Shown in pieces: positions 4,931-9,884 of a DNA stretch of 64,000 nucleotides. The position numbers and the translations under genes were made by a program. Origin of the DNA: Sulfitobacter undariae (lineage in GTDB: Bacteria; Pseudomonadota; Alphaproteobacteria; Rhodobacterales; Rhodobacteraceae); the NCBI RefSeq assembly GCF_014196805.1, contig NZ_JACIEI010000008.1, positions 62,001 to 126,000 on the forward strand, given 5' to 3'. How positions within the stretch are numbered: position 1 is the first letter of the stretch; the number at the start of each line of letters is the position of its first letter. The notes under the pieces are model-generated. The model was not told the DNA's origin. It made no database searches and saw only the letters and a list, made by a program, of their open reading frames with translations.

Positions 4931-6505
4931 TCAGCTTTGGCATTGGCTCCAGTCCAGCCCAAATTTGTCGAGGTACTTGCGCAACCTGTCAGCGTCGTTA
5001 CGGCTGGTTTTACTTGCTCGGGAAGCTGCGAACAGGCGGCGGCCTGCGGCGCTGAGGCTGGGGGTGGTCTGGCAAACGCGGATCACAGCGGCCAGTTGCA
5101 CGCGGTCGAATTCATCGATTTGGTGCGCTAAGTCACCCAGATGGGCGGTCAAAAGCTGCATGTCGGGATCGGCATTGGCGTCGTGCCATGTGGATTCTAG
5201 TGTTTTCAATTCGTCTTGTACGGCTGCGAGTGTGATGCGCCCGCGTGGGGCGAGGGTGCACATCCGTTGGATCGACGCACCTAGATCGCGAAAATTTCCG
5301 GGCCAACGTGTGCCGGGATCGGTGGCGAACTTTTGGTAAGCCGTAAATGCATCCGTGTTAAAGCTGACGCTGTTGCCCATCAATTTTTCGACCCGCGCCA
5401 ATTCATATTCAATGTTTGGGGCGATATCCTCGGGGCGGTCGCGCAAGGCGGGCAGGGTGAAGGTCCAGAGGTTGAGCCGCGCAAAAAGATCAGCACGGAA
5501 TTTCCCCTGCGCGACTAATCCAGCCAAAGCTCGCCCTGCTCCTGCAATCAGATGAAAGCGGCTGGTCACTTCGTAATCCGCCCCTAGCGGCAGATACTTT
5601 CCGGTTTCGACGGCATGCAAAATCATTGCTTGTTCATCCAGTCCAAGCTCGTCGATCTCGTCTAGGAACAGAACGCCGCCATCGGCCTCTTGTAGCAGGC
5701 CGCGTCGATCAGCACCTGCGCCGGGGATGGCTTGGCGGCGGTGTCCGAACAGGGTGGACATCGCACGCTCACCTTTCAGGGTCGAACAGTTCACATGCAC
5801 CATACGGCCTTTGATGCGGCGGCGCTGGAGCTTCAACTCATACAGTCGTGTGGCAAGATCAGATTTCCCCGTGCCCGTCGGCCCCATCAACAATAGCGGC
5901 GCATCCGAATTTGAAGTGACCAGCTCCATGCGGTCAATCATCGCATTAAACACCGCGTTGCGTGTGTTTATTCCGCCTTTAAGCAGCGTGTTGTATTCTT
6001 TGTGAACCAGATCAAAGCGCTGTTGCAGTGCATTGTATTTGGACAAATCCAAATCGACGATCTGCAACGTTCCTGTGCCTTCATCCTCACCACGTGGCGG
6101 GCCGGTCTGGATCAACTTCCCTGGGATATGCCGCGCTTCGGTGAGTAGAAACCAGCAGATTTGCGCGACATGTGTGCCAGTCGTCAGGTGGACGTGATAT
6201 TCTTCTCGCTCTTCATCAAAGCCATAACCTTGGGCGAAATCATACATTGCGCCGTACATTTCTTCAAAATCCCACGGGTCCGCAATGTCGATTTGGTGCA
6301 GGACGACTTCAGTGTCTGGATTGCCCCGCTCGACCTCTCTGGCGACCCGCTCTGCCAGATGGGTCCAGTTGCTCGCATGGATGAGCTCCAGCCGCTCGAT
6401 CGGGAAATCAGGATGCTGCGCGATCTGAACGGAAGGGCGCCAGCGGCGCCGTTTGCCTGAATCCAGATTCGTTCCGAGGAAGCCTATGACGATGTTCTTT
6501 TTCAT
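4931..6505 (-). CDS. rtcR: RtcR-type regulator of RNA repair (CARF plus AAA+ domains)
   Basis: A 524-residue RtcR protein, divergent from the RNA-repair genes it presumably controls. Residues 1-180 form the CARF-like sensor domain (opening KKNIVIGFLGTNLDSG; HVHLTTGTHVAQ near 104-115), which in RtcR senses cyclic-phosphate RNA ends. The AAA+ domain has Walker A GPTGTGK (208-214) and Walker B VLFLDEID (278-285). Residues 440-524 carry a Fis-like helix-turn-helix. Oddity: the sigma54-contact loop, normally GAFTGA, reads QAIPGA at 258-263, so the key Thr is Pro. I also found no -24/-12 promoter in front of the target gene. This copy may activate without sigma54 or be altered. Family call strong. 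Confidence 0.92.
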   Translation of the reverse strand: MKKNIVIGFLGTNLDSGKRRRWRPSVQIAQHPDFPIERLELIHASNWTHLAERVAREVERGNPDTEVVLHQIDIADPWDFEEMYGAMYDFAQGYGFDEEREEYHVHLTTGTHVAQICWFLLTEARHIPGKLIQTGPPRGEDEGTGTLQIVDLDLSKYNALQQRFDLVHKEYNTLLKGGINTRNAVFNAMIDRMELVTSNSDAPLLLMGPTGTGKSDLATRLYELKLQRRRIKGRMVHVNCSTLKGERAMSTLFGHRRQAIPGAGADRRGLLQEADGGVLFLDEIDELGLDEQAMILHAVETGKYLPLGADYEVTSRFHLIAGAGRALAGLVAQGKFRADLFARLNLWTFTLPALRDRPEDIAPNIEYELARVEKLMGNSVSFNTDAFTAYQKFATDPGTRWPGNFRDLGASIQRMCTLAPRGRITLAAVQDELKTLESTWHDANADPDMQLLTAHLGDLAHQIDEFDRVQLAAVIRVCQTTPSLSAAGRRLFAASRASKTSRNDADRLRKYLDKFGLDWSQCQS

Positions 6506-6592: not shown

Positions 6593-6702
6593 AGTAGCTT
6601 GAGGAATTCATTATTTTTCTTCGCACCTGAACCAAAATGGAGGAAAACAAACCAACGAAACAAGACGCCTCACGGCAAGCCAACCACGGAAGGACTGGGA
6701 AA

Positions 6703-8259
6703 ATGGCGAATAAATCATTGTTTGCATCGATCAAAGGTCGGTTCATGCCAGTACCCGATACTACCAACTTTGCTGGGGCGACTGCTTATAGCTATTTGGA
6801 TACCCATGCTTTGGCACAGGTCGCGATGACAGGTACGTTTGGTGCCACCTTCTATCAAGACCCAATGCAGGAACTAACTCGCGTGTTGGATTTGGCCAAT
6901 AAAGTAGACCCTTTGGTGCTGGCCAAGACAGCAGTTTATGTACGTGAAAATGGACATATGAAGGATATGCCAGCCTTCTTGCTGGCGGTTCTAGCGGGGC
7001 GTGATCCGGTGTTGTTCCAGCGTGCCTTTGGGCGTGTCGTGGACAACGGCAAGATGCTGCGCACCTTTGTGCAGATCATGCGGTCGGGGCAGACTGGGCG
7101 CAAATCGCTTGGCTCTGCGCCAAAGCGGATGGTGGCAAACTGGTTGAACACGGCTTCGGATTGGGCGCTGCTGCAGGCAAATGTCGGTAGTAACCCGTCT
7201 TTGGCCGATGTCATCAAGATGGTGCATCCCAAGCCCGAGACAGCGGCGCGTGCGACTTTGTTCGCGTGGATCATCGGGCGGCCATGTGATGTGGCGCTGT
7301 TGCCGACGCAGGTACAGGACTTCATTGCGTTCAAGAACAGTGGTAAGGGCACATTGCCTGACATGCCGTTCCAGATGCTGACGCAGCTACCGTTGACCAC
7401 AAAGCAGTGGTCGACGATCGCCGAAAACGCATCGTGGCATATGACGCGGATGAACCTGAACACATTCCTGCGCCACGGCGTACTGGACAACGCAAAGATG
7501 TGCGCCTATGTGGCCGCAGTTCTGCGTGATCCGGCGCGTATCGCCAAAGCGAGGGTGTTTCCATATCAGTTGATGACGGCCTATCAGGCCTTGTCACCAG
7601 AGATGCCGGAACCCATCCGCGCCGCGATGCATGACGCGATGGAGCTGTCGGTACGCAATGTGCCGCGCCTGTCGGGGCAAGTTGTGGTGTGCCCAGATAT
7701 ATCGGCTTCGATGTCCGGTGCTGTGACGGGGTTCCGCAAAGGCGCCACGACGGCGACGCGGTTTGTCGATGTGGCAGGGCTTGTTTCGGCTGCTCTGTTG
7801 CGGGGCAACCCTTCTGTCACCGTGTTGCCCTTTGAGGTAAAGGTCCGCGAAATGCGGCTGGAGCCACGCGACACGATCCTGACCAACGCGGCGCGTTTGG
7901 CAGAGCAGTGGGGCGGCGGTACAAACTGCACCGCGCCGCTGGAATGGTTGCTGGCCAAGGGGCGTGCCCCTGATCTGGTGATCATGGTTTCGGATAACCA
8001 ATCTTGGGCGCATGCTCAGGGTGGTACAATGGGGACGGCGATGATGCGGGCGTGGGAAAAGCTGAAAAAGCGTAACCCACGAGCCAAGCTGGTTTGCATC
8101 GACATCGCCCCTTACGGGACGACACAGGCCAAGGAACGTGACGATGTGCTGAACATCGGCGGGTTCTCTGACACGGTCTTCGACCAAATCGCAGCCTTCG
8201 CGGCAGGCGAGATGGGTGCGGACCACTGGGTCGGCCAGATCGCGGCAGTAGACGTTTAA
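6703..8259 (+). CDS. rsr: Ro60/Rsr TROVE-domain RNA-binding protein
   Basis: A bacterial orthologue of the Ro60 autoantigen. I prefer the ATG at 6703 (518 aa, MANKSLFASIKGRF) because GGAAGGA lies 8 nt upstream; the in-frame ATG at 6637 has no ribosome binding site. The TROVE region (about 10-310) is the helical-repeat ring that binds misfolded RNA and Y RNA (YSYLDTHALAQVAMTGTFGATFYQ near the start, then the PAFLLAVLAGRD repeat). The C-terminal von Willebrand A domain has a MIDAS motif DISAS at 332-336 and VSDNQSW further on. Ro proteins act in RNA quality control and tether nucleases through Y RNA. Y-RNA-like structures lie immediately downstream. Strong call. Confidence 0.95.
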   Translation: MANKSLFASIKGRFMPVPDTTNFAGATAYSYLDTHALAQVAMTGTFGATFYQDPMQELTRVLDLANKVDPLVLAKTAVYVRENGHMKDMPAFLLAVLAGRDPVLFQRAFGRVVDNGKMLRTFVQIMRSGQTGRKSLGSAPKRMVANWLNTASDWALLQANVGSNPSLADVIKMVHPKPETAARATLFAWIIGRPCDVALLPTQVQDFIAFKNSGKGTLPDMPFQMLTQLPLTTKQWSTIAENASWHMTRMNLNTFLRHGVLDNAKMCAYVAAVLRDPARIAKARVFPYQLMTAYQALSPEMPEPIRAAMHDAMELSVRNVPRLSGQVVVCPDISASMSGAVTGFRKGATTATRFVDVAGLVSAALLRGNPSVTVLPFEVKVREMRLEPRDTILTNAARLAEQWGGGTNCTAPLEWLLAKGRAPDLVIMVSDNQSWAHAQGGTMGTAMMRAWEKLKKRNPRAKLVCIDIAPYGTTQAKERDDVLNIGGFSDTVFDQIAAFAAGEMGADHWVGQIAAVDV

Positions 8260-8264
8260 ACTAT

Positions 8265-8339
8265 GGGGTCAGGCGGAATGCTTGTGGGAGTACATCTGTA
8301 TTATGTAACCCTCTCAAAAAAACCTCGTCCGCCTGACCT
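8265..8339 (+). ncRNA. Minimal Y-RNA-like structure (Y0) between rsr and the phosphoesterase
   Basis: The 75-nt spacer folds into one long hairpin. The terminal helix is 8267-8277 with 8328-8338, 11 perfect base pairs. An internal loop (ATGCTTG against a run of A followed by CCTCG) separates it from a second helix, 8285-8290 with 8311-8316. The apex is a small hairpin, TACAT (8291-8295) with ATGTA (8303-8307). The 5' arm GGCGGAATGC...TGTGGGAGTACAT matches the arms of the three downstream structures, but there is no tRNA-like module. It may be a stripped Y RNA or a processed operon element. Sharing of the arm pattern with the other three is what supports the call. Confidence 0.7.
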
Positions 8340-8362
8340 GATTAAATTTGAGAATTGGATAA

Positions 8363-8836
8363 ATGACGGAATTTGTAACAGGTTGCACCCACTTTGGGCA
8401 TGCCAACATTATCAAGCTGGCGAACCGCCCGTTTGCGGATGTGGATGAGATGGATCGCGCGCTGATCGCCAACTGGAACGCGGTCGTGGGCGCCAAAGAT
8501 ACGGTCTATCATCTGGGTGATTTTGCCTTTCGCGGCGGTCCTGGTGAAGAGTATCTAAAACGGCTTAACGGGCGGATCATTCGCCTACAGGGCAATCACG
8601 ACCCCAACGGCTGGGGCAGAGATTACATGCGGGTGAAATGCAATAAAACCCGCGCCGTGCTGTTCCATTACCCGATAGAGGAATGGGATGGCTGGTTCAG
8701 AGGTGCAGTGCATCTGCATTGCCATACGCATAGTCCGAATTTTGTATCGGGTGTGCGCCGCGGAAATGTCGGGGTTGATGCCACAGGCTTCAGCCCCCTG
8801 AAATTAGAAGAGGCCGTCGCAAGATTGGCACAATAG
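8363..8836 (+). CDS. Calcineurin-like metallophosphoesterase of the RNA-repair operon
   Basis: A compact 157-residue calcineurin-type phosphoesterase. Metal and catalytic motifs are in canonical order: CTHFGH (8-13), GDFAFRG (52-58), GNHD (77-80), H102 in FHYPIEEW, and HCHTH (119-123). It is about the size of minimal one-domain MPEs found beside Rtc genes. Its ATG at 8363 has only a weak GGAT upstream, and the Y0 structure sits in its leader, so translation may depend on rsr. From the position between the Ro protein and KptA I infer that it trims phosphates (2',3'-cyclic or terminal) on broken RNA, but the sequence does not prove the substrate. Confidence 0.88.
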   Translation: MTEFVTGCTHFGHANIIKLANRPFADVDEMDRALIANWNAVVGAKDTVYHLGDFAFRGGPGEEYLKRLNGRIIRLQGNHDPNGWGRDYMRVKCNKTRAVLFHYPIEEWDGWFRGAVHLHCHTHSPNFVSGVRRGNVGVDATGFSPLKLEEAVARLAQ

Positions 8837-8848
8837 AAAGGATAGAAA

Positions 8849-8977
8849 CCGGCGAATGCTGGTGGAACTACAGGTAGAGCACTGATCCGAACGGGATCGG
8901 AGGTCGCGGGTTCAAATCTCGCCATCATGCACATGATGTAGCTCAGTCAATTTGTTTCACCAAACCGTTGTCGCCGG
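8849..8977 (+). ncRNA. Y-RNA-like RNA Y1 with a complete tRNA-like module permuted in the D loop
   Basis: Terminal helix CCGGCGA (8849-8855) with TCGCCGG (8971-8977), with the Ro-binding-type sequence GGCGAATG in the 5' arm; second helix 8862-8867 with 8955-8960. The insert reads like a tRNA cut in its D loop: D-stem 3' half GAGC within 8873-8880; an anticodon-arm-like hairpin 8882-8888/8894-8900 (7 pairs, loop GAACG); T arm 8906-8922 with stem GCGGG/CTCGC and loop TTCAAAT; acceptor-like helix CATCAT (8923-8928) with ATGATG (8933-8938) closed by GCAC; then TAGCTCAGT (8939-8947) giving the D-stem 5' half. Bacterial YrlA RNAs are known to carry tRNA-mimicking modules. The pseudo-anticodon arm is unusual. 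Confidence 0.85.
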
Positions 8978-8989
8978 AACCAAAATACC

Positions 8990-9120
8990 CCTCGGCGAAT
9001 GCTGCGTGGAACTACATTGTTAATGTCGTGGTCGTGGGTTCGATTCCCACCCCTGCAGCCTTCTGGCAGGGTAGCTCAGGGGTAGAGCACGTATCGTTTC
9101 ACCACTCCTTGTCGCCGGGG
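8990..9120 (+). ncRNA. Y-RNA-like RNA Y2 with permuted tRNA-like module (YrlA type)
   Basis: Terminal helix 8990-8998 with 9112-9120, again with GGCGAATG in the 5' arm and CCTTGTC in the 3' arm; second helix GTGGAA (9006-9011) with TTTCAC (9097-9102). The module is, in order: a small hairpin ACATT (9014-9018)/AATGT (9022-9026); T arm GTGGG/CCCAC with loop TTCGATT (9034-9050); acceptor-like helix CCCTGC (9051-9056)/GCAGGG (9066-9071), closed by a 9-nt loop instead of free ends; TA; and a perfect D arm GCTC/GAGC (9074-9088) with loop AGGGGTA. This is the order T arm, acceptor, D arm known for YrlA. It cannot be a normal tRNA because the acceptor strands are joined. Confidence 0.88.
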
Positions 9121-9134
9121 ACCAAAAATTCATA

Positions 9135-9233
9135 GGAGGAATACCTGTGGGACTACATTGGATAAAAGCGCGTTCGAGTCGCGCCGAACCGGACGCTTGC
9201 GTTCGGGGGAAGTCTCACAAAACGTTGTCCTCC
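9135..9233 (+). ncRNA. Y-RNA-like RNA Y3 with reduced tRNA-like module
   Basis: Terminal helix GGAGGA (9135-9140) with TCCTCC (9228-9233); second helix GTGGGACT (9147-9154) with AGTCTCAC (9211-9218), 8 pairs with one G-U. Inside are a T arm GCGCG/CGCGC with loop TTCGAGT (9168-9184) and an acceptor-like helix CGAAC (9185-9189) with GTTCG (9201-9205). No D arm is present and the 5' motif is degenerate (GAGGAATA). The 3' arm CGTTGTC is retained. It is the third tandem copy and lies 66 nt before kptA. It may be a specialised or decaying Y RNA. Confidence 0.75.
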
Positions 9234-9299: not shown

Positions 9300-9884
9300 A
9301 TGACAAACAATAGTAAAAAGAACCTGCAAAAGGTCAGCCGCCTGTTGGCCAAGGTTTTGCGCCACGCGCCCGAAGAGCTGGGACTGACGCTGGATGCCAA
9401 CGGCTGGATCGCAGCAGATGTGCTGCGCGATGCGCTGGCCGCAAAAGGACTGGGTATCACAGCAGAAGAATTGGCGGTTATCGTGCAGACAAGCGACAAA
9501 AAGCGCTTCACGTTGACCGATGACGGCAGCCGTATCAGGGCGGCACAGGGCCATTCCGTAGAGGTTGATTTAGGCATCCCGCCAAGCACACCACCAGCGG
9601 TTTTGTACCACGGCACCGCGGTCAAAAACCTGCCCAGTATCAGGCAGGAAGGATTGCTGGCTGGCAACCGCCAACAGGTTCACCTGTCTGCGGATCGTGA
9701 AACCGCCCTGAGGGTGGGCACGCGACATGGCAGCCCCATAATCCTGACCGTGGATGCACGCGCTATGCAGGAAACGGGTGAAATTGCATTTTATCAGGCC
9801 GAAAACGGTGTCTGGCTTACAGATTACGTTGCGCCGAAATACCTTGCCCTTCTCCAATTGGATGAGCAGGAGGCGAATGAGTAA
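9300..9884 (+). CDS. kptA: RNA 2'-phosphotransferase (Tpt1/KptA family)
   Basis: A 194-residue KptA. The family removes an internal RNA 2'-phosphate using NAD+, yielding ADP-ribose cyclic phosphate and nicotinamide. The N-terminal winged-helix half starts KVSRLLAKVLRHAPEELGL, with catalytic R21-H22. RAAQGHS (80-86) supplies the next catalytic Arg. The ADP-ribosyltransferase-like half has YHGT (103-106) and HLSADRETA (128-136). GAGG lies 8 nt before the ATG at 9300. Bacterial KptA often has no obvious job; here its place at the end of the rsr-phosphoesterase-Y RNA operon suggests it clears 2'-phosphates during RNA end repair. Family call strong, pathway inferred. Confidence 0.93.
   Translation: MTNNSKKNLQKVSRLLAKVLRHAPEELGLTLDANGWIAADVLRDALAAKGLGITAEELAVIVQTSDKKRFTLTDDGSRIRAAQGHSVEVDLGIPPSTPPAVLYHGTAVKNLPSIRQEGLLAGNRQQVHLSADRETALRVGTRHGSPIILTVDARAMQETGEIAFYQAENGVWLTDYVAPKYLALLQLDEQEANE

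Follow-up and report, generated by a model that had tools for sequence, protein, structure and literature searches.

Four Y RNAs behind one Ro gene of Sulfitobacter undariae share a basal stem and differ in their heads, one of which carries an anticodon-like arm

In a stretch of 64,000 nucleotides of Sulfitobacter undariae (Rhodobacteraceae) DNA (NCBI RefSeq assembly GCF_014196805.1, contig NZ_JACIEI010000008.1, positions 62,001 to 126,000 of the forward strand; the whole stretch, numbered from its first letter, is called the window below), a gene for a Ro60/Rsr (TROVE) protein, flanked by an RtcR-like regulator gene, is followed by four Y RNAs, Y1 to Y4. As read directly from the sequence, they have in common a stem that covaries among relatives and differ in the head that this stem carries: Y3 adds an anticodon-like arm to a permuted tRNA-like head, and the head of Y2 is a permuted tRNA shape opened in the D loop. 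We propose, with a probability of about 0.45, that these RNAs are tRNA look-alikes that would be held by Ro, would be made when tRNAs break and could act as decoys. The RNAs and their parts, all on the plus strand, are:

8266..8339: Y1, a Y RNA without a tRNA-like head, starting 6 nt past the Ro stop codon
8849..8977: Y2, a Y RNA whose head is tRNA-like, permuted and opened in the D loop
8877..8944: head of Y2, read from the sequence, with helices each 95.6-100% paired in 7 sequences
8877-8880 and 8941-8944: D-stem halves of Y2, enclosing the three hairpins that follow
8882-8900: short hairpin of Y2 at the anticodon position
8906-8922: T arm of Y2
8923-8938: acceptor-like hairpin of Y2
8990..9120: Y3, with the canonical YrlA head (T arm, acceptor hairpin, D arm)
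9012..9028: anticodon-like arm of Y3, CTACA-TTGTTAA-TGTCG, in the register counted from the T arm
9034..9088: head of Y3, with T arm 9034-9050, acceptor hairpin 9051-9071 and D arm 9074-9088, from the Rfam alignment and pair counts
9135..9233: Y4, with a reduced head (T-arm-like hairpin and a second hairpin)

That four Y-RNA-like structures lie here in a Ro operon had been proposed by a first-pass annotation from the letters alone, and descriptor scans, Rfam and relatives all bore this out. A descriptor requiring a stem of at least 5 pairs found Y1, Y2 and Y3, and allowing a stem of 4 added Y4. The covariance model search suggested at that time, with the Rfam family YrlA (RF02553), gave a divided answer: Y3 scored 71.5 bits (E 1.9e-14), above the gathering cut-off of 69, while Y4 (40.9 bits, E 2.2e-7) and Y2 (33.2 bits, E 3.9e-5) stayed below it and Y1 was absent from the matches in the window. 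In a search of the whole genome, Y2, Y3 and Y4 were the only YrlA matches. Folding z-scores were -4.9, -3.7, -1.2 and -2.1 for Y1 to Y4, so that Y3 is by itself not unusually stable.

All four RNAs show a basal stem ending in GA/UC, an internal loop with AUGC on one side (AUAC in Y4) and UUG opposite (UCG in Y1), and an inner helix followed by CUACA (GUACA in Y1). The basal stem and internal loop typical of YrlA, with GAAUGC and UUGUC sides, were accordingly recognized in each of them, the exceptions being UCGUC in Y1 and GAAUAC in Y4. The position next to the Ro60/Rsr gene is also that of YrlA, the Ro stop lying at 8259 and the start of Y1 at 8266. A permuted tRNA-like head with T, acceptor and D arms is present in Y3, takes another topology in Y2, is partial in Y4 and is missing from Y1. 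The idea of different tRNA-like inserts on common arms thus held for Y2, Y3 and Y4; of the more precise claim of three inserts and one RNA without, the insert-free Y1 stood, but the head of Y4 consists only of a T-arm-like hairpin and a second hairpin.

We then compared the window with its relatives. A Ro search found matches in 24 of 394 family genomes, the window's own included, and 6 more loci came from named genome records of uncultured Rhodobacteraceae (5) and of a Roseobacter metagenome-assembled genome (1). After exclusion of L032, which is cut inside Ro, and of L035, a duplicate of L031, 28 loci remained, the window among them. A genome of the same genus as the window, G055, which is rated 100% complete, gave no match to the window's Ro. 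From this and the 24 matches in 394 genomes, the operon is patchy.

The strict descriptor matched 110 times within 1.7 kb after Ro in 27 relative loci (L035 in, L031 out), whereas 2 matches fell elsewhere on that strand (221 kb), 4 were antisense, and shuffles led us to expect 1.15. The relaxed descriptor gave 128 matches within the same distance after Ro in the 28 loci; 9 lay elsewhere on that strand over 284 kb, the 64-kb window accounting for 7 of these, 5 were antisense, and the shuffle expectation was 0.5. Adding 6 RNAs seen by Rfam alone and 2 seen by the strict descriptor alone (L034 at 6, L055 at 41) brings the arrays to 136 RNAs. Each Ro locus holds 2 to 8 Y RNAs, counts that may be low in L054, L055 and L056, which the Rfam scans did not include. 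The window's four are ordinary, and the claim that such loci usually have one or two, with four as the exception, does not describe this group. Chance hairpins were ruled out by the low counts outside the arrays, antisense and in shuffles, and by covariation.

Beyond the family, nine loci (L127, L130, L131, L155-L160) have a same-strand upstream Ro and at least one Y RNA; they belong to other families of the class, L156, L158 and L159 to other classes of the phylum. L157 carries 7 Y RNAs in 3.1 kb by descriptor alone, and L159 five. In two further loci, the Ro match was weak and on the other side (L128) or missing (L129). RF02553 was rejected as a survey tool for class and phylum, as many weak matches resemble tandem tRNA genes and 6 of 14 control genomes also gave matches; a locus outside the family was therefore counted only if it had been checked beside Ro.

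Covariation was examined for each class of RNA. The canonical (Y3) class, with 23 sequences, was 99.7% paired, and 12 of its 27 pairs were changed on both sides (65 cells; 0 of 500 shuffles); slid versions were just 38-50% paired, a comparison in which the unslid version is favoured because class structures were taken from the window sequence. Similarly, the 7 sequences of the Y2 class were 98.8% paired, and both sides had changed in 17 of 36 pairs, which none of 500 shuffles reached. The Y1 class, head-less RNAs lying at most 60 nt behind Ro in 12 aligned loci, had 94.3% of its cells paired and 4 pairs altered on both sides; 31 of 500 shuffles reached 4 doubly changed pairs and none reached the covariation score. 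In these three classes, the stem and inner helix were 96-100% paired. The 5 sequences of the Y4 class were 87.2% paired overall and had 4 doubly changed pairs; pairing was 97-100% in the outer stem and T-like hairpin and 89% in the inner helix, and the second head hairpin had no pairing support (47.1% over the 5 sequences). On these alignments, covariation in relatives, the check that the first-pass annotation had called for, holds for the Y1, Y2 and Y3 classes and is weaker for the Y4 class.

Counting back from the T arm of Y3, one reads the arm listed above, then TGGTC and the T stem. The loop has 7 nt in the register of a tRNA, which places GTT (9019-9021) at positions 34-36; relative to the Rfam consensus alignment, the hairpin is mostly an insertion. 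To assess this register, we collected the RNAs of the 28 loci with a T-arm-then-D-arm pattern and a CTACA or CTCCA box (43, of which 36 distinct) and 14 distinct RNAs from descriptor or Rfam matches of 11 loci outside the family, 50 distinct RNAs altogether. L053 at 302 and L128 were omitted because of a different box, and L155 1501-1613 because its T loop was missed by the pattern; its spacing leaves an arm no room. Of the 50, 25 (17/36 in the family, 8/14 outside) form three inner stem pairs that enclose a 7-nt loop in tRNA register; 2000 shuffle runs gave a mean of 2.4 and a maximum of 8. The full signature, which also demands Y32, U33 and R37, was present in 17 RNAs (shuffle mean 0.14, maximum 4), and the other registers from -4 to +4 gave no full match among the 50.

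The inner 3-bp stems of these 25 arms are of eleven different kinds, and the loop stays at 7 nt throughout. Positions 32-38 are C-A, C-C or U-C in 17 arms and U-A in the other 8. The triplets are GTT (6), GTC (5), ATC, CCT, TCT, TTG and TTT (2 each) and CTT, CAT, AAC and ACG (1 each). By a post hoc count, 19 of the 25 arms carry triplets of tRNAs that are known nuclease targets (GTT 6, GTC 5, Arg 5, TTT 2, CAT 1). Colicin E5 cleaves the tRNAs for Tyr, His, Asn and Asp. Some loops are identical to those of real tRNAs: CTTTTAA in L156 and L159 is the loop of the family's tRNA-Lys(UUU), and CTGTCAC, in L043, L054 and L158, that of tRNA-Asp. Eight RNAs, Y3 included, were selected for sharing the Y3 arm stem; the other seven carry CTT (L034), CAT (L036), ACG (L028, L029, L033) or TTG (L030, L031), so that the triplets of the set are those of Asn, Lys, Met, Arg or Gln, and Y32, U33, R37 and A38 are kept. 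Over the 37 columns corresponding to Y3 18-54, these eight vary solely at loop positions 32 and 34-37 and at one base of the variable region. The triplet thus differs among relatives and the rest of the RNA is alike, with a mean column identity of 86%.

The head of Y2 follows another plan. Put in tRNA order, it runs from the acceptor 5' strand to the 5' half of the D stem, the Y stem, the 3' half of the D stem, a short hairpin in the place of the anticodon arm, the T arm and the acceptor 3' strand. The Y stem therefore enters in the D loop in Y2 versus at the anticodon-arm junction in Y3, and Y2, as its sequence reads, is a second way to graft a permuted tRNA onto a Y stem. A model of the Y2 class, R1, recovered members that were not used for training, at 93.4 (L157), 92.1 (L160), 87.7 (L155) and 83.7 bits (L160), and a match in G434 at 90.2 bits; the next matches, canonical Y RNAs and other classes, reached at most 65.9 bits. 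Only matches above 80 bits were used, R1 being unspecific at low scores (226 of 289 genomes at E <=0.001).

Two further kinds of head were seen in the arrays. One Y RNA class has the look of a permuted tRNA-Leu: its variable arm is long and its D arm is split as in Y2 (L041:4620-4753; L042:5078-5216, minus strand; L051:4768-4916). Another class of long Y RNAs has a conserved CCCAGACGG or GCTCTCTGGCA core and a head with no plain tRNA shape; L034:5743-5890 (minus strand) is an example, and similar RNAs occur in many other loci.

The arrays of relatives also contain tRNA genes. ARAGORN called 30 of them, in the arrays of 19 of the 28 loci and of four isotypes only: Asn(GTT) 11, Gln(TTG) 8, Pro(TGG or CGG) 6 and Lys(TTT) 5. 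All 30 are co-directional with Ro and end in CCA (for example, L046:4605-4679 and L046:4965-5039). A false call inside Ro (L037) and three tRNA genes lying outside the arrays (L042 Glu, L050 Gly, L053 Met) were not counted. In 10 of 10 genomes searched with an Asn query, the array copy matched at 87-99% and a second tRNA-Asn(GTT) at 81-83%, and by sequence the array tRNA-Asn form a lineage distinct from the housekeeping one. In most of these array copies, the anticodon loop is still that of the housekeeping gene and the stems are different. An ordinary second copy was likewise identified for Lys in 4 of 5 genomes (78%) and for Gln in 4 of 5 (75-79%); in G196, the array Lys matched the Lys query poorly.

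The protein-coding genes of the cluster, which bear on its control, are:

4931..6505, minus strand: RtcR-like regulator gene (Pfam RtcR 6e-73, Sigma54_activat 3.9e-37)
6637..8259, plus strand: Ro60/Rsr (TROVE) gene (Pfam vWA_Ro60 E 1.4e-14, TROVE 3.7e-5; PDB 2nvo, Rsr, E 1.4e-17)
8363..8836, plus strand: small metallophosphoesterase-like gene between Y1 and Y2 (Metallophos 5.3e-4, slightly below cut-off)
9300..9884, plus strand: KptA/Tpt1 RNA 2'-phosphotransferase gene, last in the cluster (Pfam PTS_2-RNA 4.4e-46)

The order is thus RtcR, Ro60/Rsr, Y1, the metallophosphoesterase-like gene, Y2, Y3, Y4 and KptA, and the 2nvo and vWA_Ro60 matches agree with the earlier naming of the adjacent protein as a Ro/TROVE relative. 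RtcR is divergent from Ro in 29 of 29 oriented relative loci (the cut L032 and the duplicate pair L031/L035 counted). Ro likely starts at 6703, as judged from alignments to relatives, most of which open at residues 14-22 of the frame. The metallophosphoesterase-like gene is probably a passenger; it had no tblastn match at 1e-5 across 29 relative loci.

RtcB stands behind the array in 14 of the 15 relatives whose long downstream open reading frame was scanned (L030 is without), and KptA is whole in L028, L029, L030, L031/L035 and L033 and broken up in L036. Among the scanned proteins of the window cluster, KptA was present, and RtcB and RtcA were not. The window's own genome has of rtcB only an N-terminal remnant with a stop, outside the cluster (L181 ~1400-1860, contig C3:62767-63159), gave no RtcA match and, being 99.99% complete, no RpoN match either. 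In the window RtcR, the sigma-54 contact loop GAFTGA reads QAIPGA; among 25 RtcR copies, this loop is intact in 1 (L056), changed in 23 and unreadable in 1 (L055). A search for a sigma-54 promoter detected none: the best sigma-54-like site upstream of the window's Ro had a score reached by 199 of 200 shuffles, and in every one of the 28 loci the best score was reached by at least 18 of 200. Since RpoN is absent and GAFTGA changed, control must differ from the Salmonella scheme, and from its sequence the window RtcR would have to work without sigma-54. In that scheme, as given in the parts of the Salmonella and Deinococcus work drawn on here, RtcR senses 5' tRNA halves and switches on the operon, and a Y RNA tethers Ro/Rsr to PNPase. 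The cited sections of one study state that the CARF domain of RtcR binds 5' tRNA halves with a cyclic phosphate end, cleavage being mostly in the anticodon loop, and that the E. coli operon is activated by colicin D and VapC, whose cleavage targets are tRNA-Arg and tRNA-Met (PMC7790460).

On the reading that we propose, the Y stem would hold Ro in all four RNAs, which would be produced when tRNAs are being broken. Their heads might thereby tie up tRNA-acting enzymes, chiefly anticodon nucleases and the exonuclease by which broken tRNAs are cleared. This would account for the presence in one cell of several heads whose anticodon loops differ, and for the spare tRNA genes of sister arrays. The sections cited here from two papers contain related ideas: the tRNA-like domain of YrlA is considered a possible competitive inhibitor (PMC7790460), and PrrC cuts tRNA-Lys(ttt), with phage tRNAs proposed to counter such nucleases (PMC10264068). 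A wider version, which we consider rather unlikely, makes Ro operons tRNA-protection islands: Ro-bound Y RNAs would lure anticodon nucleases with changing loops (Asn, Asp, Arg, Lys, Met, Gln), spare array tRNAs would refill the pool, and triplets would turn over between sister species as the nucleases do.

Several observations speak against the decoy reading. Within the window, ARAGORN found no tRNA gene, so that its own array has none, and Y1, Y2 and Y4 lack an anticodon-like arm with a 7-nt loop; by the register test, 25 of the 50 canonical heads have no arm. Three inner pairs alone also occur in other registers (4/50 at -4, 3/50 at +3, 8/50 at +4), and L052 at 586 and L053 at 141, which have the same spacing, form two of these pairs but not the third. 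An alternative drawing gives the eight Y3-type RNAs a longer hairpin and a smaller loop, and minimum-free-energy folding of Y3 yields such a structure, a longer stem with a triloop, with part of the head misplaced. We prefer the 7-nt loop to the triloop because of the C-A, C-C or U-C at positions 32-38 in most arms. Lacking RpoN, RtcA and intact RtcB, the cell cannot run the published route unchanged. Finally, in the portion of the Salmonella study considered here, no YrlA fragments were seen, so YrlA was uncut by that nuclease (PMC7790460).

The alternative that survives best is a plain set of tethers, in which each Y RNA would link Ro with a partner of its own, PNPase for example, and the anticodon-like loop would play no separate part. 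It agrees with the tethering of Rsr to PNPase described in the cited sections, Rsr sitting on the stem and PNPase on the tRNA-like domain (PMC7790460, PMC8394870), and with the head-less RNAs close behind Ro in the 12 aligned loci. Neither a 7-nt loop in tRNA register, U33 being kept and 34-36 free, nor tRNA genes inside arrays would be expected from it. The alternative tethers proposed by the first-pass annotation are a possible reading of this kind, which we consider unlikely overall; it leaves the anticodon-like loops and sister-array tRNA genes unexplained.

More improbable is that the heads are relics, pieces of tRNA that recombination captured repeatedly in an array rich in tRNAs, selection acting on the stems while the loops drifted. 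The tRNA genes between Y RNAs in 19 of 28 arrays would fit such a history, as would triplets that vary in otherwise similar RNAs and, in the wider set, the arms without U33 (the full loop signature is present in 17 of 25). Drift should however affect U33 and A38 as well as 34-36, and in the eight Y3-type RNAs the former are fixed while the latter change. Having been selected for a shared arm stem, these eight cannot owe their triplets to whole-arm swapping among themselves.

We think it very unlikely that the arm is merely a short hairpin whose stem is lengthened by U33-R37 and 32-A38 pairs. The minimum-free-energy fold of Y3 does pair ACAUU with AAUGU, and U-A stands at 32-38 in 8 of 25 arms; yet the two positions cannot pair in the other 17, C-C there is shared with the housekeeping Asp loop CTGTCAC, and a 7-nt loop is constant through eleven different stems. 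That the heads are permuted tRNA genes, excised and joined into working tRNAs, is scarcely credible: such genes do have the same order of arms (anticodon arm, T arm, acceptor, D arm) and KptA, known from tRNA splicing, ends the cluster, but in Y2 and Y3 a short loop caps the acceptor stem and a CCA end is missing, Y3 forms no more than 4 of the 5 anticodon-stem pairs, and the window has no ARAGORN tRNA and the genome no intact RtcB.

One stem with many tRNA-like heads, some with anticodon loops, makes the role of Ro and Y RNAs in RNA repair operons, which the Salmonella study says its own work did not address (PMC7790460), directly testable: one can ask whether a particular loop attracts a particular anticodon nuclease and whether a swap of triplet means a swap of nuclease. 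In the window, a cluster of this kind stands in a genome that lacks RpoN, RtcA and an intact RtcB. YrlA and the RtcR-Ro operon are known. No earlier description of the anticodon-like arm, the D-loop-opened head or the array tRNA genes turned up among the titles and abstract openings listed by literature searches, whose reach did not extend to the primary Y RNA literature; these features may have been reported before.

Among known systems, YrlA (RF02553, e.g. Salmonella YrlA) is likewise adjacent to Ro, has the same kind of basal stem and shares with Y3 the permuted T-acceptor-D head; in contrast to it, Y1, Y2 and Y4 fall below the cut-off, an arm is inserted in Y3, Y2 is opened in the D loop and Y1 is head-less. 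The window also resembles the Salmonella rsr-yrlBA-rtcBA operon in having RtcR divergent from Ro and Y RNAs after Ro, with RtcB in most scanned relatives, and departs from it by KptA in place of RtcB/RtcA, a genome without RpoN, more Y RNAs and the tRNA genes of sister arrays. Similarly to phage-borne tRNAs, as the cited sections present them (PMC10264068), extra tRNA genes with ordinary anticodons stand in a tRNA-damage module, here in the window's relatives only; unlike these, they are bacterial, and the array tRNA-Asn combine mostly housekeeping loops with stems of their own.

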